From Muricauda sp. MAR_2010_75 (GTDB lineage: Bacteria; Bacteroidota; Bacteroidia; Flavobacteriales; Flavobacteriaceae), in contig NZ_JQNJ01000001.1 of NCBI RefSeq assembly GCF_000745185.1, forward strand, positions 953,501-1,017,500: a DNA stretch of 64,000 nucleotides, in the 5' to 3' direction. The stretch's first letter is position 1, and the number at the start of each line of letters is the position of its first letter. Below the pieces are notes generated by a model. That model was given only the letters and a program-made list of their open reading frames with translations. It was not told the DNA's origin and made no database searches. Below are positions 1 to 12,343 of the stretch, piece after piece. Position numbers and translations under genes: made by a program.

Positions 1-2
1 GG

Positions 3-170
3 TCTCTGGCCATTGTGCTTAGTTATCAGGCGTATTCCAACCCAGATTATAAGGAGAATCTTTGGTTATTGGCCATTGAATATATTTTGGTCTTTGGCTT
101 TTTCATTTATGAAATGATAGGTAGAGGTTCAAAAAAGTTATATTTCTTCAAAAAACAAGTCAATCTCTAG
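3..170 (+). CDS. C-terminal end of an unidentified membrane protein (partial)
   Basis: An open frame runs in from the left edge and ends at a TAG at 168-170, leaving the last 55 residues of a protein. The fragment begins with a hydrophobic stretch (SLAIVLSYQAYS), has a polar loop, then a second hydrophobic segment rich in Leu, Ile, Phe and Trp (about fragment residues 20-38), and ends in a basic tail (GSKKLYFFKKQ). This is typical of a cytoplasmic C-terminus after a last membrane helix. I do not recognise the family from the fragment, and the function cannot be assigned. Confidence 0.55.
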   Translation, partial: SLAIVLSYQAYSNPDYKENLWLLAIEYILVFGFFIYEMIGRGSKKLYFFKKQVNL

Positions 171-181
171 GCCAATTAGAA

Positions 182-189
182 TTAATTTG
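182..189 (+). promoter_or_regulatory. possible Bacteroidota -7 box for the arginine operon
   Basis: TTAATTTG matches the Bacteroidota sigma-ABfr -7 consensus TAnnTTTG at all fixed positions but one. Transcription would start near 194-197, only about 10 bases before the ATG of the arginine-rich leader peptide at 205. No clear -33 TTTG is visible upstream, so the call is tentative. Confidence 0.3.
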
Positions 190-204
190 TACTTTTATCC
201 CACA

Positions 205-285
205 ATGAAAGGACAAGAATACATATTTACAACATTGAGCATTCCCGCTCCCGTACGTCCATTTTCTCCACGTCGTCGCCCGTAA
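205..285 (+). CDS. arginine-rich leader peptide of the arginine operon
   Basis: A 26-codon reading frame starts with ATG at 205 and ends with TAA at 283-285, 90 bases before the first gene of the arginine operon. Its last ten residues are VRPFSPRRRP: four arginines within the final nine codons, all CGT or CGC, interspersed with prolines. Arginine-codon clusters in a short frame directly ahead of arginine genes are the classic mark of a leader peptide that senses charged tRNA-Arg by ribosome stalling. All four codons belong to the CGY pair, so one tRNA species could be the sensor. The peptide itself probably has no other role. I infer attenuation or coupled translation control. The placement and composition are seen directly; the mechanism is not proven. 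Confidence 0.7.
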   Translation: MKGQEYIFTTLSIPAPVRPFSPRRRP

Positions 286-301
286 GGGTGCACTATTATC
301 T

Positions 302-325
302 ATGGAAATAGGTGAGTCCATTTCC
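302..325 (+). promoter_or_regulatory. two mutually exclusive small hairpins after the leader peptide
   Basis: ATGGA (302-306) can pair with TCCAT (317-321), or GGAAAT (304-309) can pair with ATTTCC (320-325). The two stems share bases on both sides and cannot form together. A T-run follows at about 345-350, but it is 19 bases away, too far for a standard intrinsic terminator. They lie between the arginine-rich leader and the first operon gene, where alternative structures would act in attenuation. The stems are short, so chance is possible. Confidence 0.3.
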
Positions 326-375
326 GCAAAACCAACAAAACATCTTTTTTAATTTTATCTGTTTAATCGCTTGCA

Positions 376-1002
376 ATGGATATTGTAATTGCTAACGAAT
401 CACATTTTAAATACGCACAAATTATCTGCAATACCATAGCGGAATCCGCTAAGGTGCGTGGCACCGGAATTGCCAAACGTACCCCTGAATATATCATGAA
501 ACGTTTACAGAACGGAAACGCCGTCATTGCTTTGGATGGTGATAAGTTTGCTGGCTTCTGTTATATTGAAGTTTGGGGGAACAAGGATTTTGTGGCCAAT
601 TCAGGACTTATTGTACACCCCGATTATAGAAACCAGGGACTGGCCAAAAAAATAAAAAAGGCTGTCTTTGACCTGTCACGAAAGAAATTTCCGGATGCCA
701 AAATTTTCGGGATCACCACGGGACTTGCTGTCATGAAAATGAACTACGAGCTGGGCTATAGGCCCGTAACATTTTCAGAACTTACCGATGACCCTGATTT
801 TTGGAAAGGCTGCCAAACCTGTAAGAATTTTGACATTCTAACACGCACCGAACAAAAAATGTGCCTGTGCACCGGAATGCTGTACGACCCCAATGAAAAA
901 AAGAGCGGAAAAAATACCACATCAAAAAAATTAAATGGAAAGGCTTTTCAAAGATTGAAAAATATAAAAGAAACCCTTTTCCTTAAGAAGAAAGAAAAGT
1001 AA
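376..1002 (+). CDS. GNAT N-acetyltransferase, probable acylglutamate synthase
   Basis: This 208-residue protein has a GNAT fold: the central strand FAGFCYIEVW, then LIVHPDYRNQGLAKKI, whose R-N-Q-G-L-A is the acetyl-CoA pyrophosphate-binding loop (motif A, about residues 78-90), and a C-terminal half containing CQTCKNFDIL and CLCTG, a small cysteine cluster. It is the first gene of an otherwise complete arginine operon that has no classical argA, argJ or fused argAB. In Bacteroidota a short GNAT protein at this place is thought to make N-acetyl- or N-succinylglutamate from glutamate, the first step of arginine synthesis. The role is inferred from context; the GNAT assignment is firm. The extreme C-terminus is lysine-rich and probably disordered. 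Confidence 0.8.
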   Translation: MDIVIANESHFKYAQIICNTIAESAKVRGTGIAKRTPEYIMKRLQNGNAVIALDGDKFAGFCYIEVWGNKDFVANSGLIVHPDYRNQGLAKKIKKAVFDLSRKKFPDAKIFGITTGLAVMKMNYELGYRPVTFSELTDDPDFWKGCQTCKNFDILTRTEQKMCLCTGMLYDPNEKKSGKNTTSKKLNGKAFQRLKNIKETLFLKKKEK

Positions 1003-1009
1003 AATGTCT

Positions 1010-1061
1010 GTTCAAGCTGTTATCCTGATCGCCCACCTGCCGCAGGAAGGCAGTTGTGAAC
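1010..1061. repeat. nested inverted repeat between the GNAT gene and argG
   Basis: GTTCA (1010-1014) pairs with TGAAC (1057-1061), and inside it CTGCC (1037-1041) pairs with GGCAG (1049-1053) around a 7-base loop. The stretch is more GC-rich than its surroundings and has no T-tract, so it looks like a dispersed extragenic palindrome rather than a terminator. It may fold in the operon mRNA and alter stability between the first two genes. Confidence 0.45.
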
Positions 1062-1086
1062 CGCAATTTAAAATTGAAGAACCAAA

Positions 1087-2277
1087 ATGAAAAAATTAGT
1101 ATTAGCCTATAGTGGCGGACTGGATACCTCCTATTGTGCCAAATATTTATCCCAAGAAGAAGGATTTGAAGTACATGCCGTTAGCGTAAACACCGGTGGA
1201 TTCAGCAAAGCTGAGATTGAGGAAATTGAACAAAAGGCACTGGCCTTGGGTGCAACTACTTACACCTCTATCAACGCCATTTCCAATTTTTATGAGAAAG
1301 TAGTGAAATACCTCATTTTTGGAAATGTGCTAAGAAACAACACATACCCCCTTTCAGTAAGCGCAGAACGGATTGTACAAGCTATTGAAATTGTAAACCA
1401 CGCCAAGAAAATTGGCGCCCAGTATATCGCCCATGGCAGTACCGGAGCTGGAAACGATCAAGTGCGATTTGATATGATATTCCAAATCTTGGCACCAGAA
1501 ATTGAAATCATCACCCCAATCAGGGACAAAAAATTGGCCCGAGAGGAAGAAATCAATTACTTACAACAAAATGGTATTGATTATTCTTGGGAAAAGGCGA
1601 AATATTCCATTAACAGAGGATTGTGGGGCACATCCGTAGGTGGTGAGGAAACCCTGACATCGCACCTTTCCTTACCGGAAACCGCGTACCCAAGTCAATT
1701 GGAAAAAGAATTGCCCAAAGAATTAAAATTGACGTTTAAAAAAGGGGAGCTCGTAGCCCTGGATGGTGAGGAAGATAATCCTGTTGCCAATATTGAAAAG
1801 TTAGAGGCCATTGCTTCCAAATACGCCATTGGACGAGACATCCATGTAGGTGATACCATCATCGGAATCAAAGGTCGGGTTGGTTTTGAGGCTGCTGCCC
1901 CTTTAATAATTATTAAAGCGCACCATCTCTTGGAAAAGCATACGTTGAGCAAGTGGCAGCAGTATCAAAAAGAGCAAATGGCCAACTTTTATGGAATGCT
2001 GTTGCACGAAGGCAACTATTTGGACGAAGTAATGCGAAACATTGAGGCCTTTTTGACGGATACCCAAAAGAACGTTTCAGGAGATGTATTTGTTACCCTT
2101 CATCCTTACAGATTTGAATTGAACGGCATCGCTTCAGACCATGATCTAATGAATGCTTCCTTCGGAAGTTACGGGGAAATGAACAAAGGTTGGACCGCCG
2201 ATGACGCCAAAGGTTTTATCAAAATTCTGTCCAATTCAGGGAAAATTGCAAACCACGTAAACCAAAAACATGATTAA
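1087..2277 (+). CDS. argG: argininosuccinate synthase
   Basis: This 396-residue cytosolic enzyme joins citrulline and aspartate with ATP to give argininosuccinate, the penultimate arginine step. The ATP-pyrophosphatase loop AYSGGLDTS is at residues 8-16. AHGSTGAGNDQVRF (about residues 115-128) is the conserved citrulline/aspartate-binding segment, and YSINRGLWGTSVGGEE follows in the C-terminal synthetase domain. Length is typical of the family. The ATG at 1087 places the P-loop strand at the very N-terminus as expected. The gene overlaps argC by 8 bases (2270-2277), which suggests translational coupling. Confidence 0.97.
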   Translation: MKKLVLAYSGGLDTSYCAKYLSQEEGFEVHAVSVNTGGFSKAEIEEIEQKALALGATTYTSINAISNFYEKVVKYLIFGNVLRNNTYPLSVSAERIVQAIEIVNHAKKIGAQYIAHGSTGAGNDQVRFDMIFQILAPEIEIITPIRDKKLAREEEINYLQQNGIDYSWEKAKYSINRGLWGTSVGGEETLTSHLSLPETAYPSQLEKELPKELKLTFKKGELVALDGEEDNPVANIEKLEAIASKYAIGRDIHVGDTIIGIKGRVGFEAAAPLIIIKAHHLLEKHTLSKWQQYQKEQMANFYGMLLHEGNYLDEVMRNIEAFLTDTQKNVSGDVFVTLHPYRFELNGIASDHDLMNASFGSYGEMNKGWTADDAKGFIKILSNSGKIANHVNQKHD

Positions 2278-3244
2278 AGCGGGAATCATAGGCGGTTCTG
2301 GGTATACAGGTGGGGAACTCATTCGATTGTTATTGAACCACCGTGAAACCGAAATCGATTTTGTGTACAGCACAACACGAGCAGGAAAACCCATCACCTC
2401 GGCTCATCAAGATCTCTTAGGATTGACCGATTTGGCATTTTCAGGAGATATCAACCCAAACGTGGATGTTGTCTTTCTTTGCTTGGGGCATGGTAATTCC
2501 ACCTCGTTTCTAAAGGAGTACACCTTTTCCAAGGAGACCAAAATCATTGATTTGAGCAATGATTTTAGGCTAAAGGCCGATGCCAAATTTGATGGAAAAG
2601 ATTTTGTTTACGGATTGCCAGAACTCTACAAAGAAGAGATTCAATCAGCCATTGCCATTGCCAATCCCGGTTGTTTTGCTACGGCCATTCAGCTGGCATT
2701 GTTGCCCTTGGCTAAGGCCAATTTGTTGAATAATGATGTCCACATTAACGCTGTCACTGGAAGTACCGGTGCTGGTGTTGGATTGTCATCAACCTCACAT
2801 TTTAGCTGGCGGAACAACAACATTTCGTGGTACAAACCTTTTACCCACCAACATTTGGGAGAAATAGGCGAAAGTTTGGATTCCTACGGAAATCAAGTGG
2901 GAAAATTATTGTTTTTGCCCACACGGGGGAATTTCACCAGAGGAATTTTGGCAACGGCCTACACCTCTTTTGAAGGTACTTTGGAAGAAGCCAAAAAGCT
3001 ATACAACGATTTTTATACCGATGCAGCGTTTACCCATGTTTCTGAAGAGGAAATCCATCTAAAACAAGTAGTGAACACCAACCAATGTCATATTCATTTG
3101 CACAAACATGAAGACTTGCTATTGGTGACTTCAGCCATTGATAATTTACTGAAGGGCGCTTCTGGGCAAGCCGTACAAAATATGAACCTGATGTTTGGTT
3201 TCCCTGAAACCGAAGGTCTGTTATTAAAAGCAGGAGTTTTTTAA
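2270..3244 (+). CDS. argC: N-acetyl-gamma-glutamyl-phosphate reductase
   Basis: This 324-residue enzyme reduces N-acyl-gamma-glutamyl phosphate with NADPH to the semialdehyde, step three of arginine synthesis. The Rossmann loop GIIGGSGYTGGEL is at residues 5-17, and the catalytic cysteine is Cys135 in ANPGCFATA. VTGSTGAGVG follows in the catalytic domain. It starts within the end of argG and is followed after 11 bases by proC. The pathway may use succinylated rather than acetylated intermediates (see the transcarbamylase). The assignment is firm; which acyl group it carries is open. Confidence 0.96.
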   Translation: MIKAGIIGGSGYTGGELIRLLLNHRETEIDFVYSTTRAGKPITSAHQDLLGLTDLAFSGDINPNVDVVFLCLGHGNSTSFLKEYTFSKETKIIDLSNDFRLKADAKFDGKDFVYGLPELYKEEIQSAIAIANPGCFATAIQLALLPLAKANLLNNDVHINAVTGSTGAGVGLSSTSHFSWRNNNISWYKPFTHQHLGEIGESLDSYGNQVGKLLFLPTRGNFTRGILATAYTSFEGTLEEAKKLYNDFYTDAAFTHVSEEEIHLKQVVNTNQCHIHLHKHEDLLLVTSAIDNLLKGASGQAVQNMNLMFGFPETEGLLLKAGVF

Positions 3245-3255
3245 AAAAATCAACC

Positions 3256-4050
3256 ATGAAAATAGCAATCATAGGAGCGGGAAACTTGGGATTGGCCATT
3301 GCCAAAGGGATTTTGCATACCAACGGCGCCACCACCATGTACCTCACCAAACGAAATACCAAATCCATCCAGGATTTTGAAAAATACGGGAACGTTACGG
3401 TCACTTCGGATAATGAAGAAGCTGTCAAAAACTCCGATATTCTCATTTTTGCGGTACAACCGGGTCATTTTACCTCCATTTTGGAGCAAACCAAAGACCT
3501 GCTCACCGAAAAACATGTGATCATCAGTACCATCACCGGTTTTGGCATACCCAGAATCGAAGGCATTATCGGTTCCGATAAATACATCATCCGAAGTATG
3601 CCCAATACCGCCATTTCGGTGGGGAAATCCATGACCTGTATCTGTAGCAATGAACTCGGCAAAAAACGAATCGATTTGGCCAAGGCCATTTTTAATCGGA
3701 TGGGACATACCATGGAGATTCCAGAGGTACAAATGCAAGCGGCCACCGTTATCTGTGCAAGTGGAATCGCCTTCTGGATGCGATTGATTCGCGCTACAAC
3801 CCAAGGGGCCATTCAATTGGGATTTGATGCCAAGGAAGCACAGGAATTGGCTATGCATACCTGTAATGGAGCGGCCAGTCTTTTGATTGAATCCGGTAGC
3901 CATCCCGAAGAGGAAATTGATAGGGTAACCACGCCCAAGGGCTGTACCATAGAAGGATTGAACGAAATGGAACACCAAGGATTGAGCTCCTCGCTCATAA
4001 GAGGTATTGTGAGTTCCTTTGAAAAAATCAGCCAAATTAAAAAGGGGTAA
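3256..4050 (+). CDS. proC: pyrroline-5-carboxylate reductase
   Basis: This 264-residue enzyme reduces pyrroline-5-carboxylate to proline with NAD(P)H. The N-terminal Rossmann domain begins IIGAGNLGLAIAKGI (residues 5-19). IIRSMPNTAISVGKSMT (about residues 115-131) is the P5CR hallmark, and the C-terminal dimerisation domain has VTTPKGCTIEGL, close to the family's VTSPGGTT signature. It sits inside the arginine operon, 11 bases after argC and 3 bases before argD. Glutamate semialdehyde, its substrate precursor, connects the proline and arginine routes, so co-transcription would balance both. Confidence 0.94.
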   Translation: MKIAIIGAGNLGLAIAKGILHTNGATTMYLTKRNTKSIQDFEKYGNVTVTSDNEEAVKNSDILIFAVQPGHFTSILEQTKDLLTEKHVIISTITGFGIPRIEGIIGSDKYIIRSMPNTAISVGKSMTCICSNELGKKRIDLAKAIFNRMGHTMEIPEVQMQAATVICASGIAFWMRLIRATTQGAIQLGFDAKEAQELAMHTCNGAASLLIESGSHPEEEIDRVTTPKGCTIEGLNEMEHQGLSSSLIRGIVSSFEKISQIKKG

Positions 4051-4053
4051 AGC

Positions 4054-5181
4054 ATGAAATTATTTGACGTATATCCATTGTATGATGTCACCCCGGTGTC
4101 CGCAAAAGGCATTGAGGTTTGGGATGATACAGGACAAAAATATTGGGATTTTTATGGAGGTCATGCCGTGATTTCAATTGGGCATACTCACCCGCATTAT
4201 GTAAAGCGAATCAAAGACCAATTGGACAAGATTGCATTTTACAGCAATTCCATCCAAAACCCCATTCAAGAGGAATTAGCCGAAAAACTGGGAGAGCTAT
4301 CCGATTGTGAGGCGTATGATCTGTTTATGTGCAATTCTGGGGCGGAAGCCAATGAAAATGCGCTGAAAATGGCATCGTTCCACACGGGAAAATCCAAAGT
4401 CATTGCGTTTACCAATAGTTTTCATGGAAGGACATCTGCTGCAGTTGCCGTTACGGACAACCCAAGCATTAATGCACCCATCAACAAACAACAGGCGGTT
4501 ACTTTTCTCCCATTGAATGATTTTGATGCCTTTGAAAAAGCAATTGCTTCGGATGAGTATTGTGCGGTGATTTTGGAAGCGATTCAAGGTGTGGGTGGAT
4601 TGGACGAACCCACCACAGAGTTTTATCAATTCATCGCAGAAAAATGTAAGACGCATCATGTTGTTTTGATTGCGGATGAAGTCCAATCTGGCTATGGAAG
4701 AAGTGGTAAGTTCTTTGCCTTTCAACATCATGGGATTCAGCCTGATATTATTTCCATCGCAAAAGGAATGGGTAATGGTTTTCCAGTTGGAGGTATACTG
4801 ATCCACGAATCTTTCAAACCCTCATACGGCCTTTTGGGGACCACTTTTGGTGGAAACCATTTGGCCTGCGCGGCGAGTTTGGCTGTTCTGGAAGTGTTGG
4901 AAAGTGAGGGACTCACTAAAAATGCGGATGAATTGGGAACCTATTTTAGGAAAAAGGCCCAAGAAATTCCAGAAATCAAGAACGTAAAGGGTCGGGGGTT
5001 GATGATAGGCCTAGAATTTGATTTTGAAGTGGCCGACCTCCGAAAAAAACTGATCTATGACCAACATATTTTTACAGGTAGTGCCAAAAACAAGAAGTTA
5101 TTGCGGTTTTTACCCGCATTGAACATCACCAAGGAACATGTGGACCTATTTTTTGAAGCACTCAAAAAAGCATTGAAATGA
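4054..5181 (+). CDS. argD: acylornithine aminotransferase
   Basis: This 375-residue class-III aminotransferase moves an amino group from glutamate to N-acylglutamate semialdehyde, forming N-acylornithine with PLP. FMCNSGAEANENALK (residues 91-105) binds the cofactor phosphate, ADEVQSGYGRSGKFF (208-221) holds the PLP-contacting Asp, and the Schiff-base lysine is Lys237 in SIAKGMGNGFPVGG. The protein is shorter than most ornithine aminotransferases and matches the ArgD length. The stop overlaps the next start by 4 bases (5178-5181). A catabolic ornithine aminotransferase is an alternative, but the operon argues for biosynthesis. Confidence 0.92.
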   Translation: MKLFDVYPLYDVTPVSAKGIEVWDDTGQKYWDFYGGHAVISIGHTHPHYVKRIKDQLDKIAFYSNSIQNPIQEELAEKLGELSDCEAYDLFMCNSGAEANENALKMASFHTGKSKVIAFTNSFHGRTSAAVAVTDNPSINAPINKQQAVTFLPLNDFDAFEKAIASDEYCAVILEAIQGVGGLDEPTTEFYQFIAEKCKTHHVVLIADEVQSGYGRSGKFFAFQHHGIQPDIISIAKGMGNGFPVGGILIHESFKPSYGLLGTTFGGNHLACAASLAVLEVLESEGLTKNADELGTYFRKKAQEIPEIKNVKGRGLMIGLEFDFEVADLRKKLIYDQHIFTGSAKNKKLLRFLPALNITKEHVDLFFEALKKALK

Positions 5182-6116
5182 AGCATTTTTTATCTGTTAA
5201 CGATATTGAATCCCTGCCCGATTGGGTGGACGAAGCAATTACCCTAAAACAAAATCCCTATCAATTTGAAGATTTGGGGAAACATAAGACCGTATGCCTG
5301 TTGTTCTTCAACAATAGTTTGCGAACACGTTTGAGCACGCAAAAAGCCGCCATGAACTTGGGCATGGAAGTCATGATCATGAATTTTGGCAGCGAAAGTT
5401 GGGTTTTGGAATACCAAGATGGTTCCGTGATGGACCAAGGCACCTCTGAACACATCAAGGAAGCCGCCCAAGTGGTATCCCAATATTGCGATATTGTTGC
5501 CATACGTGCTTTTCCCGATTTAAAGGATAGGGAAAAGGATGAAGCCGAGGAAGTGCTAACCGGTTTTGCCAAACATGCTTCCGTTCCTGTGGTAAATATG
5601 GAAAGTTCTACGGGTCATCCTTTGCAGGCTTTGGCAGATGCCATAACTTTAGCGGAATATAGCCTAAAACCAAGACCCAAGGTGGTTTTATCCTGGGCGC
5701 CCCATCCAAAGGCTTTGCCCCATGCTGTGGCCAATTCATTTACGCAAATGATGAAGTTGCAAGATGCGGAATTTATCATCACCCACCCCAAAGGGTATGA
5801 ACTCAACCCCAACATCACCCAAGGCTGCCAAATTGAGTATGATCAAGAAAAAGCACTGAAGGAAGCCGATTTTGTCTATGTGAAAAACTGGAGCAGCTAT
5901 ACCAATTACGGAAAAGTGCTGCACCAAGATCTGAACTGGACCATGACACAACAAAAATTGGGACAGGCCAAATTTATGCACTGTCTTCCCGTGCGGAGAA
6001 ACATTGTTGTGGAAGATGCGGTTTTGGATGGAAATCAATCATTGGTAATCAACCAAGCACAGAATAGAACCTTTTCAGCACAAATAGTCCTGAAAAAAAT
6101 ATTGGAAGCCTTATGA
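5178..6116 (+). CDS. argF': N-acylornithine (succinyl- or acetyl-) carbamoyltransferase
   Basis: This 312-residue enzyme carbamoylates N-acylornithine instead of free ornithine. The carbamoyl-phosphate loop reads FFNNSLRTR (residues 43-51) where true ornithine transcarbamylases have STRTR. HPLQALAD and HCLPVRRN complete the active site. The pathway therefore goes through N-acylcitrulline, which the downstream deacylase must cleave. Residue 90, in the segment QGTSEHIKEA, is Ser. As I recall, this position is Glu in the Xanthomonas acetyl enzyme and Pro in the Bacteroides succinyl enzyme, and small residues there favour succinylornithine. The substrate is thus more likely N-succinylornithine, but this rests on one residue. 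Confidence 0.92.
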   Translation: MKHFLSVNDIESLPDWVDEAITLKQNPYQFEDLGKHKTVCLLFFNNSLRTRLSTQKAAMNLGMEVMIMNFGSESWVLEYQDGSVMDQGTSEHIKEAAQVVSQYCDIVAIRAFPDLKDREKDEAEEVLTGFAKHASVPVVNMESSTGHPLQALADAITLAEYSLKPRPKVVLSWAPHPKALPHAVANSFTQMMKLQDAEFIITHPKGYELNPNITQGCQIEYDQEKALKEADFVYVKNWSSYTNYGKVLHQDLNWTMTQQKLGQAKFMHCLPVRRNIVVEDAVLDGNQSLVINQAQNRTFSAQIVLKKILEAL

Positions 6117-6892
6117 AACAAGCACTATCCATCGTAAAAGTAGGGAGCAACCTTATTGAAGATGATAAGGAGTTCACCCGGATTTTAGAGCTTTTTTCCA
6201 AAATGCCAGGAAACAAAATCATGGTACACGGGGGAGGTAAAAAAGCAACACAGATTGGCAAGAAACTGGGCATTGAGGCCAAAATGATCAATGGCCGAAG
6301 AATCACCGATGAAAAAAGTTTGGAAATCGCCATTATGGTGTACGGTGGATTGGTAAGTAAACAGATTGTGGCCCAATTGCAAGCTTTCGGAACCAATGCC
6401 ATTGGAATGAGCGGGGCAGATGCCAACGCCATTCTGGCACACAAAAGACCTGTTACAAAAGTGGATTTCGGCTATGTGGGCGATGTGGACAAAGTGAATG
6501 CCTATGGTATTTTCAAACTATTGCAGGCAGGTTTTACCCCAATACTTTGCGCATTGACACATGATGGAAAAGGACAATTGCTCAATACCAATGCCGATAC
6601 CATTGCAGCAGAAGTGGCCATCGCCATGTCCGATCAATTCGACACTACTTTATATTATTGTTTTGAAAAGAAAGGTGTGCTAGAGGACGTGGACAATGAA
6701 AATTCAGTCATTACCCATATCAATTCCAAAACGTATGAAGAACTTCTGGCCTACGGCATTATTTCAAATGGGATGCTTCCCAAAATGCACAATTGTTTTT
6801 ATGCCCTCAGAAACCAAGTTAAGAAGGTATGTATAGGAGATATTGACATGCTGGAAAAAGGCAACCCAAATTTTACCACAGTAACACTATGA
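6113..6892 (+). CDS. argB: acetylglutamate kinase
   Basis: This 259-residue amino-acid kinase phosphorylates N-acylglutamate at the gamma-carboxyl, step two of arginine synthesis. VKVGSNLIED at the N-terminus and VHGGGKKATQIGKKLG (about residues 37-52) form the phosphate-binding glycine loop. NTNADTIAAEVAIAM (about residues 161-175) is the nucleotide-binding signature, and SNGMLPKM closes the active site. It starts 4 bases inside the transcarbamylase gene and ends 4 bases inside the deacylase gene, so translation of the three is probably coupled. I see no N-terminal helix of the kind used for arginine feedback in hexameric forms, so regulation may lie in the leader. Confidence 0.95.
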   Translation: MKQALSIVKVGSNLIEDDKEFTRILELFSKMPGNKIMVHGGGKKATQIGKKLGIEAKMINGRRITDEKSLEIAIMVYGGLVSKQIVAQLQAFGTNAIGMSGADANAILAHKRPVTKVDFGYVGDVDKVNAYGIFKLLQAGFTPILCALTHDGKGQLLNTNADTIAAEVAIAMSDQFDTTLYYCFEKKGVLEDVDNENSVITHINSKTYEELLAYGIISNGMLPKMHNCFYALRNQVKKVCIGDIDMLEKGNPNFTTVTL

Positions 6893-7965
6893 AAACCAAT
6901 CAAGAAACATTGACCGAAAAGGCTATTGAACTATTAAAGGAATTGATTGCCATTCCTTCCTTTTCCGGTGAAGAGGATAAAACGGGAGATGCCATTGCCA
7001 CTTTTTTAGAGGGGTTTGGTATAAAGACCGAACGGCAATACAATAATATTTATGCCTTTAACAAACATTTTGATGCTTCCAAGCCAACATTGTTGCTGAA
7101 TTCCCATCACGATACCGTAAAACCTAACAGCGCTTATACCAAAGACCCCTTTCATCCCCATATTGAAGATGGAAAACTCTATGGACTTGGTAGTAATGAT
7201 GCTGGCGGTTGCTTGGTATCACTTTTGGCCACTTTTGTTCATTTTTATGAGATGGAAGGATTGAGCCATAATATAATTATGGCCGCAACAGGTGAGGAAG
7301 AAGATGCGGGCGAAAAAAGTATTCGGGCGTTGTTACCCATCCTTCCTGAAATAAACCTTGCTGTTGTGGGCGAACCTACTTTAATGGACCTCGCCATTGC
7401 CGAAAAAGGTCTTGTGGTCTTTGATGCTGTTGTGGAAGGAACGCCTTCACATGCTGCACACCCAAACGATAACAATTCCATTTACAACACCATTGATGTC
7501 TTGCGGTGGTTCAAAGATTACACGTTCGATAAAGTTTCCGATGCTTTGGGTGAGGTAAAATTGACCGTTACCCAGATCAATGCGGGAAAACAACACAATG
7601 TGGTTCCTGCCCAGGTGGATTTGGTGGTGGATGTTCGGGTAAACGACTGTTATTCCAATAAGGAGATTTCGGATATGTTGCAAAAGGAAGCCCCTTGCAA
7701 AATGACACCACGTTCTTTGCGATTGAATTCATCCTGCATTAATCCCAACCATGATCTGGTAAAAAGTGGTTTGGCCTTGGGACGAAAAACCTATGGTTCC
7801 CCTACCTTATCCGATCAAGCTGCGCTGAGTTGCCAATCCGTGAAATTGGGTCCTGGGGATAGTACCCGTTCACATTCGGCCAATGAATTTATTTATGTAA
7901 ACGAAATTGAAGAAGGCATCGACCTTTATATTAAAATATTACAAGGTTTTTTAAAAAAGAATTAA
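6889..7965 (+). CDS. argE: M20-family deacylase (N-acylcitrulline/N-acylornithine)
   Basis: This 358-residue zinc peptidase of the M20 family has the metal-site motifs NSHHDT (residues 71-76), GSNDAGG (101-107, metal-bridging Asp104), and ATGEEEDAG (133-141, catalytic Glu136 and metal-ligand Glu137). A lid/dimerisation domain with HAAHP follows. It removes the acyl group blocking the alpha-nitrogen, here most likely from N-acylcitrulline, the product of the upstream transcarbamylase. The gene overlaps argB by 4 bases. It is close to the acetyl-lysine/acetylornithine deacetylase branch. The exact acyl group is unknown. Confidence 0.88.
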   Translation: MKTNQETLTEKAIELLKELIAIPSFSGEEDKTGDAIATFLEGFGIKTERQYNNIYAFNKHFDASKPTLLLNSHHDTVKPNSAYTKDPFHPHIEDGKLYGLGSNDAGGCLVSLLATFVHFYEMEGLSHNIIMAATGEEEDAGEKSIRALLPILPEINLAVVGEPTLMDLAIAEKGLVVFDAVVEGTPSHAAHPNDNNSIYNTIDVLRWFKDYTFDKVSDALGEVKLTVTQINAGKQHNVVPAQVDLVVDVRVNDCYSNKEISDMLQKEAPCKMTPRSLRLNSSCINPNHDLVKSGLALGRKTYGSPTLSDQAALSCQSVKLGPGDSTRSHSANEFIYVNEIEEGIDLYIKILQGFLKKN

Positions 7966-8052
7966 AAGGAGTTCGAGCGGAGTCGAGAACTCGATAAACA
8001 GATTCCCGCCGGAGTTTATGCTGAGCAAAGCGAAGTGCGGGAATGACAACTA
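7966..8052. repeat. double extragenic palindrome before argH
   Basis: Two inverted repeats stand side by side between argE and argH. GAGTTC and GAACTC bracket the first (about 7970-7993), and ATTCCCGC and GCGGGAAT bracket the second (about 8003-8045). No T-tract follows, so they are not typical terminators. The layout resembles the dispersed REP-like palindromes of flavobacterial genomes. In the mRNA they would form stable stems that could lower argH expression relative to upstream genes. Confidence 0.5.
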
Positions 8053-8058
8053 CATACT

Positions 8059-9345
8059 ATGAAACTCTGGGACAAAGGTTTTAGTACCGATAAAAAAATA
8101 GACCATTTTACCGTTGGAAATGACCGCGAACTGGATTTGGTCTTAGCAAAATATGATGTCATTGCATCCACCACCCACGCCAAAATGTTGGGCAAAGTAG
8201 GATTGATCACTGAAGAGGAGTCCGGTGACTTGGTGAAGGCTTTGGGCCAAATCGGCAAGGATATTGACAATGGAAAATTTACCATTGAGGACGATTTTGA
8301 GGACATGCACTCCAAAATTGAATTTCTCCTTACCGAAAAGCTGGGTGATACCGGCAAAAAAATCCATTCAGCCCGTTCCCGAAACGACCAGGTATTGGTG
8401 GCCATGCAGTTGTACCTGAAGGACGAATTGACTGAAATCACTTCACAAGTAAAGTCTTTGTTTGATTTGTTGCTGGATTTAGCGGAAAAACACAAAAACG
8501 TATTGCTGCCTGGTTACACGCATTTGCAGATTGCCATGCCTTCCTCATTTGGACTTTGGTTTTCGGCCTATGCCGAAAGTTTGGTAGATGACCTGTACTT
8601 TGTGCAGGTGGCCCATAAAGTGGCGGACCAAAACCCGTTGGGGAGCGCTGCAGGTTATGGTAGCTCTTTCCCCATTGACCGAAGCTTTACCACCGCCGAA
8701 ATGGGTTTTGACACCCTAAAATATAACGTGGTTGCTGCCCAAATGGGTCGTGGGAAAGTGGAAAAAGCTGCCGCTTTCGGGATTTCCAGCGTTGCTGCTA
8801 CGCTATCCAAAATGGCCATGGACATTTGCCTGTACATGAGCCAGAATTTTGATTTTATCTCTTTTCCCAATGAACTGACCACGGGAAGCAGCATTATGCC
8901 CCACAAAAAGAATCCGGATGTCTTTGAACTGATTCGGGCCAAGTGTAATAAAATTCAAACGGTTCCCAACCAATTGACGTTGATTACCAACAACCTGCCC
9001 AGTGGATATCATCGAGATTTGCAATTGGTGAAGGAAGTTATTGTTCCTGCTTTGCAGGACATGCAGGCTTGTCTGGAATTGATGACTTTCAGTTTAAAGG
9101 AAATCAAGGTGAACCCAAACATTTTGGAAGACCCCAAATACGATTACCTCTTTAGCGTAGACACTTTGAACGAGCTCGTAAAAAGCGGAATGCCCTTTAG
9201 GGATGCCTACAAAACCATGGGCAAGGCCATTGAAAATGGCAATTTTAAACCCAAACGGGACATTGAACATACCCATGAGGGGAGCTTGGGCAATTTGTGT
9301 TTGGAGGAAATCAAACAGAAAATGGAAAAGGCACTTAACCCTTAA
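8059..9345 (+). CDS. argH: argininosuccinate lyase
   Basis: This 428-residue enzyme splits argininosuccinate into arginine and fumarate, the last arginine step. GSSIMPHKKNPD (about residues 280-291) is the fumarase/aspartase superfamily signature containing the catalytic serine loop. ARSRNDQV (about residues 108-115) and LPGYTHLQ (about 149-156) are two further conserved active-site blocks. It is slightly shorter than the E. coli enzyme but complete. It is the last gene of the arginine operon, 93 bases after the deacylase, separated by a palindromic repeat, and is followed by a hairpin that could end the transcript. Confidence 0.96.
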   Translation: MKLWDKGFSTDKKIDHFTVGNDRELDLVLAKYDVIASTTHAKMLGKVGLITEEESGDLVKALGQIGKDIDNGKFTIEDDFEDMHSKIEFLLTEKLGDTGKKIHSARSRNDQVLVAMQLYLKDELTEITSQVKSLFDLLLDLAEKHKNVLLPGYTHLQIAMPSSFGLWFSAYAESLVDDLYFVQVAHKVADQNPLGSAAGYGSSFPIDRSFTTAEMGFDTLKYNVVAAQMGRGKVEKAAAFGISSVAATLSKMAMDICLYMSQNFDFISFPNELTTGSSIMPHKKNPDVFELIRAKCNKIQTVPNQLTLITNNLPSGYHRDLQLVKEVIVPALQDMQACLELMTFSLKEIKVNPNILEDPKYDYLFSVDTLNELVKSGMPFRDAYKTMGKAIENGNFKPKRDIEHTHEGSLGNLCLEEIKQKMEKALNP

Positions 9346-9372
9346 ATCACGCTTCATATTTTAGGGAAAGTA

Positions 9373-9412
9373 AAAATCCAGAAGGTTACGCTCTAAATTC
9401 ACACTGGATTTT
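9373..9412 (+). terminator. possible terminator of the arginine operon
   Basis: AAAATCCAG (9373-9381) pairs perfectly with CTGGATTTT (9404-9412), 28 bases after the argH stop. The loop is 22 bases and the 3' arm ends in Ts. The stem is strong for this genome but the loop is long, so efficiency is uncertain. Confidence 0.45.
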
Positions 9413-9459
9413 AATTGTGGAAAACGCTAACTTCATTCGATCATTAAAGTATACTTTGA

Positions 9460-10347
9460 ATGGCGTTTATAGACTACTATAAAATCCTTGGGATCCAAAA
9501 AAATGCAACCCAAGACGAAATTAGAAAAGCGTACCGAAAGCTGGCGCGTAAATTTCATCCTGATTTAAATCCAAACGACAAAGAGGCTGAGAAAAAGTTC
9601 AAAGAAATCAATGAAGCCAATGAGGTGCTCAGCAATGAGGAAAATCGTAAGAAGTATGACAAGTATGGAAAAGATTGGATGCATGCTGAAGAATTTGAAA
9701 AAGCGCAGCAACAACAGCGTTCGCAACGAGCCTACACAGGAAGGTCATCTGAACATTTTTCAGAGGGCGATTATTCCGACTTCTTTGAATCCATGTTTGG
9801 AGGAGGAAGAGCCAGAGGCGGAAGTATAAAGTTTAAAGGGCAGGACTATAATGCGGAGCTCAACCTGAACCTAAAGGACGTCTACAAAACACACAAACGT
9901 GTTCTCACGGTGAACGGTAACAACATTCGAATTACCATTCCCTCGGGAGTCAAAAACGGCCAAACAATCAAAATCAAAGGACATGGTGGCCAAGGCATCA
10001 ATGGTGGTCCAAATGGAGATCTTTTCATTACTTTCTCCATTCTAAATAATACCGATTTTAAACGTGACAAGGACAATCTGTACAAAACAGTGGATATCGA
10101 CTTGTACCAAGCTCTACTTGGAGATGAAATTGTTGTAGATACTTTTGATGGCAAAGTGAAGTTGAAGGTCAAGCCAGAAACTCAAAATGGCACCAAAGTA
10201 AAATTAAAAGGGAAAGGGTTTCCGATATATAAAAAAGAAGGTGAATTCGGTGATTTATTTATCACCTATAATATTGTACTTCCCACTAAATTGACGGATA
10301 AAGAGAAGGAATTAATTAAGGAACTGGCAAAATTGCGGAACAAATGA
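9460..10347 (+). CDS. cbpA: CbpA-type DnaJ co-chaperone
   Basis: This 295-residue protein starts with a J domain (residues 5-70) containing the HPD motif at 33-35, which stimulates the ATPase of DnaK. A Gly/Phe-rich linker ([16 protein letters not shown], about residues 107-122) leads to two C-terminal substrate-binding beta domains (about 125-290). The CxxCxGxG zinc finger of true DnaJ is absent, so this is the class-II/CbpA type. It overlaps the next gene, a CbpM-like modulator, by 4 bases. No DnaK gene is near, so it must act with a DnaK encoded elsewhere. Confidence 0.9.
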
Positions 10348-10637
10348 GCAAAGAAAATTTAATCCTGGTCAACAAGTTGTGCACACACTATGAGGTAGAA
10401 ATGGTGTTATTTCACCATCTTCAGGAACTTGGCATAATAGAACTCAAAACTATTGACGATTCGCATTTTATTCATGAGGACAAAATCGGTGTTGTGGAAA
10501 AAGTTATCCGGATACACAGGGACCTTAATGTTAATTTGGAAGGGGTAGATACAGTCTTAAATCTACTGGAAAAAATAAATGCCCTGCAGACAGAATTGAA
10601 TACCGTAAAAAATAGATTGCGATTGTACGAAGACTAG
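10344..10637 (+). CDS. CbpM-like chaperone modulator
   Basis: This 97-residue protein has an N-terminal MerR-like helical half and a C-terminal coiled-coil helix ([19 protein letters not shown]). It starts inside the end of the CbpA gene with an ATGA overlap. In E. coli the CbpM protein encoded just after cbpA binds the J domain and blocks its contact with DnaK; this protein matches in size, layout and position. No DNA-binding role is assumed. The sequence alone is weak evidence; the gene pairing makes the call. Confidence 0.75.
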
Positions 10638-10765
10638 AATCAATTTATTTGACAAAGTCTATTATAAAACACCTCCCTTTTTTGTTCTTTTTAGTTCTAT
10701 TAAATTTCCAAGGCCATTGCCATAAATTGGGTAAATTGGGCCAGAAAACTGTTAGTGGTCCATTT

Positions 10766-12343
10766 ATGCAGCAAAAAATTGTAACCTCTATTGTGGCTTT
10801 CGCCATGGTTTGTCTTCTGGGAAATGCCCAAGATGCCTATCCAAAAAACGAAAACGTAGATGTACAACACTACGTGTTCGGCCTTTCCTTAACTGATGCC
10901 TCCAACAAAATACAGGGCGAAACCCAAGTAACCGTCTCCTTTAAAGAAAAGGCTGTTCCATTTGCTTTGGATTTGGTTGGAAAGTCAGGAGAATTTGGCA
11001 TGGAAGTCACGGAGGTTTTGGAGGATAGTCTCCAAGCAGACTATTCCTATTCTGAAAACAGAATCAATATTCTTCCAAAAACCGAGGCCAAAACACAAAA
11101 GTTCACCATAAAATACCACGGCATTCCTGAAAGAGGTCTTGTCATTGATACCACCAAATATGGAAAACGCTCCTTTTTTGGGGACAACTGGCCCAACTTG
11201 GCGCGGCATTGGCTTGCCTCGGTAGATCATCCGTATGATAAAGCGATTGTGGAATTCCAAATTACGGCTCCAGACCACTACGATGTAGTGGCCACCGGTG
11301 AAAAAATTGAAGAAAGCAATTTGGAGAACGGCTACAAACTCACCATATACCGAGAACCTGCTCCCGTGGCTACCAAGGTCATGACCATCGGCGTTACCGA
11401 ATTTGCAAGTCGCTTGGTAGATGAAGTGCAAAACATCTCCGTTACCGCTTGGGTCTATCCACAAAACAGATTAGAGGGGTTTCACGATTACACCGTGGCC
11501 GGAAAAGTGCTGGAGCCGTATTCCTATGCCAAACTGGCCAACATGCAGGCCAAGACGCAGTGGGGTGGACTTGAAAATGCCGGAACCATCGCCTATTTTG
11601 AAAATTCAGTCACCGGAAACAATACCGTAGAACCTTTGATTGCGCATGAAATCGCCCACCAATGGTTTGGCAATTCCGCCACCGAGAAGAGTTGGAACCA
11701 CGTTTGGCTAAGTGAGGGTTTCGCTACCTATTTCTGCATCCTTTATCTGGAAGATGTGTATGGAAACGAACGTAGAAAAGAAGAATTGGCCATTGATCGT
11801 AGAGAAATTATTGACTATTACAAAACCAACCCATCACCCATTGTTGATTTGACCATATCCGACCCCATGCGGGTACTTAGTACAAATACCTACCAAAAAG
11901 GGGGTTGGGTATTGAACATGCTCCGCCATAAATTGGGTGACAAAACCTTTTGGAACGGAATTCGAAAATACTACACCACCTATCGGAACAGCAATGTCCT
12001 TACCGATGATTTTCGGAAGGTGATGGAAGATGTTTCTGGTGAAAAGCTGGACGATTTTTTTCAGCAGTGGCTCTTTACCAAAGGACACCCCCAGCTAAAA
12101 TGGAACTGGGAATACAAAAAAGGGAAAGTAATACTCCATTTGGAACAACTACAATCGCATCATGTGTTCCAGTTTCCGATGGAAATTGGTTTGGTAAAAG
12201 ATGGTAAAACAGTTATGGAAACCATTCAAGTAAATGAGCAGTCCCAAAATTTTGAACTGAGGTCAAGTACACACCCAGACAATGTCATCCTCGACCCCAA
12301 CCAATGGACCCTTTTTGAAGACATGGGAAAATCAAAAAACTGA
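10766..12343 (+). CDS. secreted M1-family zinc aminopeptidase
   Basis: I choose the ATG at 10766, which gives a clear signal peptide (MQQKIVTSIVAFAMVCLLGNAQ); the frame stays open upstream to a TTG at 10649 but that stretch does not look like a secreted N-terminus. The mature protein has an N-terminal beta domain, the M1 substrate loop GGLENAGT (a GAMEN variant), and the gluzincin site HEIAH at residues 294-298 with the third zinc ligand Glu317 in WLSEGF. At 525 residues it lacks the large C-terminal helical domain of PepN. It probably trims N-terminal residues from peptides in the periplasm or outside. It follows the co-chaperone genes after a 128-base gap. Confidence 0.88.
   Translation: MQQKIVTSIVAFAMVCLLGNAQDAYPKNENVDVQHYVFGLSLTDASNKIQGETQVTVSFKEKAVPFALDLVGKSGEFGMEVTEVLEDSLQADYSYSENRINILPKTEAKTQKFTIKYHGIPERGLVIDTTKYGKRSFFGDNWPNLARHWLASVDHPYDKAIVEFQITAPDHYDVVATGEKIEESNLENGYKLTIYREPAPVATKVMTIGVTEFASRLVDEVQNISVTAWVYPQNRLEGFHDYTVAGKVLEPYSYAKLANMQAKTQWGGLENAGTIAYFENSVTGNNTVEPLIAHEIAHQWFGNSATEKSWNHVWLSEGFATYFCILYLEDVYGNERRKEELAIDRREIIDYYKTNPSPIVDLTISDPMRVLSTNTYQKGGWVLNMLRHKLGDKTFWNGIRKYYTTYRNSNVLTDDFRKVMEDVSGEKLDDFFQQWLFTKGHPQLKWNWEYKKGKVILHLEQLQSHHVFQFPMEIGLVKDGKTVMETIQVNEQSQNFELRSSTHPDNVILDPNQWTLFEDMGKSKN

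Follow-up and report, generated by a model that had tools for sequence, protein, structure and literature searches.

What controls the arginine biosynthesis operon that lies near the beginning of the 64,000-nucleotide stretch of Muricauda sp. MAR_2010_75 DNA analysed here (hereafter, the window)? Arginine operons are the standard example of control by the ArgR repressor. A preliminary description of the locus had pointed instead to an arginine-rich leader peptide, and inspection of the DNA agreed with it on the frame itself: 26 codons run from an ATG to a TAA on the + strand (205..285), the translation is MKGQEYIFTTLSIPAPVRPFSPRRRP followed by the stop, four CGY arginine codons fall within the last nine (CGT at 256, 271 and 274, CGC at 277), and the stop is followed by 90 bases (286-375) before the first gene begins at 376. 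We refer to this leader peptide ORF with its arginine-rich end, identified by a coding signature in 30 loci of the genus, as argL. Three of its arginine codons form a run, CGT CGT CGC (271..279, +; RRR before the final Pro and the stop), evident from the sequence and from codon counts. The upstream arginine codon (CGT of VRP, 256..258, +) is absent in most relatives that have an extra arginine codon in the run.

The operon itself reads GNAT-argG-argC-proC-argD-argF'-argB-argE-argH, all on the + strand. Its first gene (376..1002) encodes a GNAT acetyltransferase (PF00583/PF13508), possibly N-acetylglutamate synthase, judging from its position; named relatives of the gene, the best at 96% identity, point to the Muricauda/Allomuricauda/Flagellimonas group of Flavobacteriaceae. 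It is followed by argG (1087..2277, profile match), argC (2270..3244, TIGR01850), proC for pyrroline-5-carboxylate reductase (3256..4050, PF14748), argD (4054..5181, profile match), a carbamoyltransferase gene (5178..6116), argB (6113..6892, TIGR00761), a gene for an argE-like deacylase (6889..7965, profile match) and argH (8059..9345, TIGR00838). The carbamoyltransferase matched the N-acetylornithine type (argF') best, scoring 275 bits with NF003384 against a cut-off of 288, and the operon may therefore use the acetylated pathway. The location of proC within an arginine operon prompted us to consider proline sensing by the leader, which was set aside since proline was equally frequent in another frame (2.59 versus 2.57).

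A profile search for ArgR (PF01316) found no match in 119 genomes of the family, that of the window included, and matches in 9 of 14 control genomes, a Bacteroides among these. Across the class, 12 of 197 genomes gave a match, ten of them over the cut-off, and one of these ten (G227) belongs to the family. The G227 match, of 26.9 bits inside a frame of 312 amino acids, is probably not ArgR, judging by its score and length, and the same genome also has the leader element described below (at L108). ArgR/AhrC has the same pathway as target but is a DNA-binding repressor, and the ArgR protein that operator control would need was found neither in this genome nor in the other family genomes among the 119. 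The proposal of a leader route distinct from ArgR in a flavobacterium agrees with this distribution; attenuation in its classical form is not supported, as shown below. A family in which no ArgR was found thus has a conserved arginine-codon leader instead.

The GNAT gene was present in 42 of 59 relatives searched, 34 of these in the same genus, and the best 30 of the 34 GNAT-bearing genus genomes, own genome included, formed the genus set. The leader frame was kept in all 30 loci, with an ATG placed 20-30 codons ahead of the stop in every case. Over codons -3 to -9, pairwise differences were concentrated at third codon positions (0.44, against 0.11 at first and 0.03 at second positions), and synonymous codon differences (1180) outnumbered non-synonymous ones (365); in the middle of the peptide the drift was 0.37, 0.16 and 0.34 at first, second and third positions. 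Gaps inside the frame measured 3 or 6 bases in an alignment of 29 of the 30 loci. Arginines lost at one place were regained elsewhere, some species having PVRPF-PRRRP and many sisters PISPF-PRRRRP, and the number of arginines varied a little, one having been lost in L003 (PISPFSPRRRP) and L017 and five being present in L026 and L027. Start, stop and arginine codons were therefore kept among relatives while the remainder drifted, the pattern that the preliminary description had sought by alignment. We conclude from these comparisons that the conserved frame ahead of the arginine operon is not a product of chance, and that a short ORF conserved as coding sequence stands upstream of a biosynthetic operon.

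In other genera, leaders were parsed at 77 of 80 family loci, giving 78 with the window, 70 of which (the window and 69 others) end in Arg-Pro-stop. L048 was misparsed (by eye it ends YRRP-stop); it is counted in the sets of 78 leaders, which rest on the window plus 77 family loci, and dropped from the sets of 77 used for folding, complementarity and step distance, which rest on the window plus 76. The last 12 codons of the 70 Arg-Pro-stop leaders held 4.16 arginine codons in frame versus 1.60 and 0.37 in the other frames, and 68 of the 70 held three to five. CGT or CGC made up 234 of 257 arginine codons at positions -3 to -15 of the 78 leaders, a count that pools leaders running past hairpin P2 (see below) with the rest, versus 23 of 101 in 11 genes of the window. 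A single tRNA (anticodon ICG) decodes both CGU and CGC, so the leader probably senses that tRNA. Codon positions shifted between leaders while the number stayed near four; a few leaders had only two (L048, by eye, and L271). Codons for the end product are enriched and conserved and, as these comparisons indicate, the arginine codons are what selection keeps in the leader. Among the 77 parsed family leaders, 57 offer an ATG, 18 only a suitably placed GTG or TTG, and two no start, one of the two being the misparsed L048.

Just upstream of argL, the sequence TACTTTTA (190..197, +) matches the flavobacterial -7 promoter box TAnnTTTG with one mismatch. With the box-to-start position for this promoter type taken from the accessible text of PMC9723704, the predicted transcription start falls at about 202. 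The leader ATG follows it by 3 nt, and the leader mRNA may accordingly be near leaderless. A box matching in at least five of six positions lies just upstream of 48 of 58 ATG leaders (window and family), versus 18% of shuffled stretches, and is lacking in the other 10 of the 58; the predicted 5′ UTR measures 3 nt in 28 of the 48. The distance from box to ATG is similar across many family loci. A sigma-70 scan, which does not cover the flavobacterial promoter type, gave no promoter at the leader.

Two conserved hairpins, absent from the preliminary description, accompany the end of argL. The first, P2 (277..290, +; CGCCC-GUAA-GGGUG), was found by alignment. Its 5′ arm consists of the last Arg-Pro codons and its loop holds the stop codon; it is therefore an RNA structure overlapping the control codons, and it would be expected to open when a ribosome sits on the stop or on the final arginine codons. 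P2 is mostly invariant, with a double change in one of five pairs in each of the alignments A2 and A4, and covariation consequently says little about it; 92-93% of its cells pair in the two sets. By eye, its sequence was swapped wholesale, pairing being kept, in L065, L072, L074 and L108; the replaced forms include CGCAC-GUUU-GUGCG and GCCCC-UA-GGGGC, with the stop codon shifted in some. A U-rich spacer of near-fixed length follows (291..303, +), defined on 64 canonical cases of 78 with leaders that run past P2 pooled in; it is 53% U and 8% G, and measures 12 or 13 nt in 49 of the 64. The first three bases past P2 are mostly Y-R-Y, not U.

The second hairpin, P3 (304..325, +; GGAAAU-A-GG-UGAGU-CC-AUUUCC), combines a 6-bp stem, a bulged A, GG/CC pairs and a UGNGU loop, and its core lies 25 to 29 nt from the stop in Arg-Pro-stop leaders with P3 placed. 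P3 was identified by covariation on A2 and on the held-out A4. A2 contained 63 double-changed cells, chiefly in P3, against a shuffled mean of 24.2 (0 of 500 shuffles), and A4 contained 74 against 21.7 (0 of 500), the A4 alignment having been fitted to the model, towards which it leans, and the shuffles ignoring relatedness. The number of further pair types in A2 was equalled by 45 of 500 shuffles. Sliding the P3 pairing partners made the covariation signal drop sharply. Because P3 contains G-U pairs, the structure belongs to the + strand RNA, and a DNA operator at P3 was rejected as its arms covary with many G-U pairs. The stem, bulged A, two G-C pairs and loop give P3 a resemblance, in shape alone, to hairpins bound by proteins, the MS2 operator for instance. 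The predicted probability of its inner pairs, over 84 sequences, was 0.53 with no ribosome, 0.61 with a ribosome on the arginine codons and 0.59 with one on the stop.

The remainder of the region showed less structure. A small hairpin, P1 (237..250, +; GAGC/GCTC), inside the leader ORF and very variable in sequence between genera, lies in a region that folds somewhat better than shuffles (mean z of -1.0 and 26 of 77 under the 10th percentile, versus 0.0 and +0.3 in control regions), and is the weakest of the three hairpins. The linker from P3 to the first gene (326..375, +) appeared unstructured and G-poor from its folding and base composition, with 6% G versus 12% before hisG and similar C, and a U run directly after P3 is not typical. 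The window's leader as a whole folded no better than shuffles (z of -0.95; 31 of 200 shuffles did as well). With the genus loci alone, RNAalifold returned one long-range helix and no pair changed on both sides. A pairing of the leader segment GUCCAUUU with AUGGAAAU, competing with P3, was discarded, not being kept in the genus (by eye), and complementarity between leader and P3 was not above shuffles. A second short ORF (302-352, MEIGESISAKPTKHLF) was not taken as a gene because its frame has stops within P3 in many other genera (by eye).

How widespread is this arrangement? The GNAT gene was matched in 171 of 249 family genomes and had no match in the other 78. Loci of other genera numbered 148 (80 in a first set and 68 held out), about 21 lower-scoring genomes of the 171 falling outside the sets. 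We built a covariance model of the leader end and the two hairpins, R1, from 84 sequences (77 of the 80 family loci and 7 from the genus). R1 recovered the element upstream of GNAT in 145 of the 148 loci: in all 80 of the first set, 77 of which had built the model (87 of 87 with the genus loci), and in 65 of the 68 held out, every one of these matches having an E of 7e-8 or better. It found all three loci that a regular expression for P3 had missed (L073, L089 and L103). The held-out loci without a match were L308, L312 and L320. Short frames are still seen at L308 and L312, ending in PRRRIRE and RRRRCRE before the stop, possibly a divergent version of the element, and nothing resembling the leader element was recognised at L320. 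R1 gave no strong match in 13 listed genomes of the family genus g146, among which G184 (carrying L320) has the GNAT gene without the element.

Run over 147 genomes of the order, R1 gave 12 strong matches (E <1e-9), all of them in this family and all adjoining GNAT and argG; the window's own genome yielded a single strong copy plus one chance-level match. Eighteen of the weaker matches (L123-L140, none above 25.9 bits, including some within the family) were treated as chance because none of the nine arg proteins was found in their loci. The P3 pattern, allowing at most two mismatches and searched for in 60 family genomes, occurred at 27 places in 26 of them, 20 of these places at GNAT sites and the remaining 7 unplaced relative to GNAT, and the reversed pattern occurred at 2 places. 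Rfam, Flavo-1 included, had no match at gathering score in positions 1-12000, and a search of 150-420 returned a single chance match (E of 6.7). Coding leader, kept arginine codons, P2, P3, their spacing and their association with the operon are shown by the sequence comparisons themselves.

Outside the family, we inspected the DNA ahead of GNAT at eight loci from other families of this order. Short frames containing arginine precede the gene in families f2, f3 and f15 (L141, L142, L143 and L146), candidate frames were weaker in f9, and f5 had none; R1 gave no match at the sites of these five families. L142 and L143 have RRRP frames and share a hairpin with a UACGU loop and altered stem pairs, and L146 has MNKTTKHINTLAPRFFRRPLWVLN with a P2-like CGCCC-CUUGU-GGGUG (by eye).

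The preliminary description had expected ribosome-mediated attenuation. The conserved coding leader with kept arginine codons is as that idea has it, but the classical terminator and antiterminator were not found. By one rule, terminator-like structures occurred in 6 of 78 arg leaders (shuffled mean 0.6), all six being P2 with its U-rich spacer, whereas the same rule recognised 24 of 25 his leaders of the family, with stems of 11-14 bp and an immediate U run. A scan of positions 1-1000 of the window gave no terminator-like site. Antiterminator-like complementarity in the arg leaders had a mean z of -0.32 to +0.19 over five region pairs (n=77), compared with 3.64 in the his control (20 of 22 tested), in a test that misses 5-bp helices, the P2 arms as control scoring a z of 0.55 (2 of 77). 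Sensing of arginine codons by leader translation is, on the comparative evidence, well supported; the arg leader as classical attenuation, of the trp/his kind with intrinsic terminator and antiterminator segment, is not.

The his leaders used as control (L149-L173, from 25 family genomes) are textbook histidine attenuators before hisG. That of the window's own genome (L170, C1 near 3675787) ends in NTYHHLYTCPQAR before the stop and has the terminator AACCCGTTTGAG-AAATC-AAGCGGGTT with a T run. Like the arg leader, the his attenuator of the same family and genome places codons for the end product just upstream of the operon; it differs in having a terminator and an antiterminator, both missing from the arg leader by the same tests, which has P2 and P3. 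The trp and his leaders of E. coli have a 1:2 pause hairpin that contains both the control codons and the stop and that the ribosome melts. P2 resembles that hairpin, but counterparts of the 2:3 antiterminator and the 3:4 terminator were not found in the arg leader. The arg leader therefore departs from the family's own his attenuators in having no recognisable terminator switch.

What, then, could the element do? We propose an explanation in five steps, probable in our view but held with some reserve, under which positions 205-325 would be the translated cis-regulatory leader of the arginine operon. Since transcription is predicted to start about 3 nt before the leader ATG, ribosomes would load at once, and the CGU and CGC codons of the leader would sense the supply of charged tRNA-Arg. 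P2, forming when no ribosome is nearby, would act as a pause hairpin and detain RNA polymerase at the foot of P3 until the leading ribosome has caught up. With plentiful arginine, the ribosome would finish and leave, P2 would re-form and transcription would stop early in the leader. This stop would come by a route other than an ordinary hairpin-plus-U-run terminator, the leading candidates being Rho-type action on the G-poor RNA that follows P3 and weak termination by P2 with the U-rich spacer, with a factor reading P3 as an alternative end signal. With arginine short, the ribosome would stall on the arginine codons, P2 would stay open and the operon would be transcribed. P3 would form at any ribosome position, and a factor recognising its bulged A and UGNGU loop would take part in the decision. 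Most probably, P2 stays open as long as a ribosome occupies the arginine codons, and early termination is thereby averted in a non-canonical way. We infer the holding by P2, the termination, the ribosome stall, the P3 factor and the direction of control from the arrangement just described.

At the foot of P3, 68 of 77 leaders have a pyrimidine-G step, and in 55 of the 61 canonical cases having it the step lay 11-13 nt from the P2 stem. A hairpin-to-step distance of 11-13 nt is the geometry of hairpin-stabilised pauses. Pause hairpins are described in PMC6336406, in whose accessible text this distance is not among the details given. By analogy, P2 with 11-13 nt to the step resembles a hairpin-stabilised pause site, a reading made post hoc, as the first base of P3 is usually G anyway. 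We further suggest, tentatively and leaning slightly against it ourselves, that P2 and P3 form a new readout, in which a ribosome-controlled hairpin coupled, at a near-fixed distance, to a constant hairpin read by a factor through its bulged A and UGNGU loop would let the occupancy of the arginine codons set elongation with no terminator/antiterminator switch. Candidates for the factor would be RNA polymerase itself, a NusG- or Rho-type protein or another RNA-binding protein. If true, such a readout would account for arginine control in a family apparently without ArgR, and a factor reading P3 would be a new way for leader-peptide translation to steer expression.

Several other explanations divide the same evidence differently. 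Rho-dependent termination in leader or linker, set by the ribosome on the leader and acting as the sole readout, overlaps one branch of the five-step explanation. Leader control of this type by ribosome occupancy operates in mgtL, tnaC and speFL. The linker, unstructured, G-poor and similar in C to the DNA before hisG, would suit Rho, as would the C-rich leader end and the lack of an ordinary intrinsic terminator in the arg leaders, but A/U-rich DNA with C over G also precedes hisG, and the nearly invariant P3 loop would have no explanation; we consider Rho as sole readout to be on the unlikely side. A closely related idea, overlapping another branch, makes P2 and the U-rich spacer a weak intrinsic terminator whose 5′ arm, being Arg-Pro codons, is covered by a stalled ribosome, so that no antiterminator is needed and P3 merely helps downstream. 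P2 indeed supplies the only terminator-like matches, well above shuffles, and its spacer is rich in U. Yet its stem is mostly of about 5 bp with Y-R-Y after it, unlike the long his terminators with their immediate U run, the window scan saw no terminator-like site and P3 is again left over, which makes a P2 terminator unlikely. Control of translation rather than transcription, with the hairpins governing access to the GNAT start or re-initiation there, fits the 90 nt from leader stop to GNAT start in the window, and leaders with arginine codons acting on translation or mRNA stability do exist (orf34-speF, PMC6386406; rbfL, PMC13009471, each as far as its accessible text goes). We rate it distinctly unlikely: P3 ends 50 nt before the start, the linker is open, and the leader and P2 region shows no consistent pairing with the start region.

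Nascent peptides such as TnaC and SpeFL stall the ribosome, and an RRP-stop ending could do so on free arginine; the Arg-Pro-stop that closes 70 of 78 first-set and 51 of 68 second-set leaders would agree with this. However, the P2 arm likewise imposes Arg-Pro, other parts of the peptide show little conservation from genus to genus, and the frame continues past P2 in L065, L072, L074, L081, L102 and L105 and in several held-out loci (RRTFVRA-stop, RRPLGV-stop), so that peptide arrest is very unlikely. Sensing by the RNA alone, as in a riboswitch, with the ORF a mere bystander, would explain the near-invariant bases of P2 and P3 and the covariation of P3, but neither the codon-position signature, the gaps in threes and the floating arginine codons nor the near-fixed distance of the start codon from the promoter box, and we hold it to be very unlikely indeed. 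Finally, P3 (AGGUGNGUCC) could recruit 30S subunits through complementarity to the 16S rRNA 3′ terminus (GGAUCACCU); by eye, nine of the ten bases would pair, one of them as G-U, around a bulge of one base. This is barely credible, as the G opposite the rRNA U is invariant in 84 sequences though A would pair better, one inner P3 pair goes from G-C to A-U or U-A with the hairpin kept, and in most loci some 60-70 nt lie between P3 and the start codon.

Parts of the explanation that we favour have precedents elsewhere. In Salmonella, two consecutive arginine codons of orf34, ahead of speF, sense arginine and an Arg-to-Lys change abolishes the response, according to the accessible text of PMC6386406; this short ORF with arginine codons is like the arg leader, but the target is ornithine decarboxylase, the RNA is another one, and Rho and RNase G are involved. 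Arginine codons of a leader peptide also sense arginine in rbfL of Staphylococcus aureus (PMC13009471, accessible text), but there they are the rare AGA and AGG and the paused ribosome blocks an adjacent ribosome site of a biofilm regulator. In Flavobacterium psychrophilum, of the same family as the arg leader, structured 5′ regions showed signs of leader peptides, and leader-peptide attenuation was proposed in 2021 before amino-acid operons, with pheA and hisG named and no arginine element named in the accessible main text (PMC9723704). The accessible texts of PMC4833913, PMC7366714 and PMC8632094 do not describe the arg leader element, and our search of the openly readable literature found no account of an arginine biosynthesis operon in Bacteroidetes being preceded by an arginine leader peptide. 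The principle is therefore known; what appears to be new within the literature searched is its use for the arginine operon, how widely it occurs in the family and the arrangement of P2 and P3. The leader could serve as an arginine-responsive control element for flavobacteria. Variants of P3 exist in L265, L291 and L319, with loops UGUGG or UGCGC or an altered core (by eye), and these could reveal which loop bases matter.
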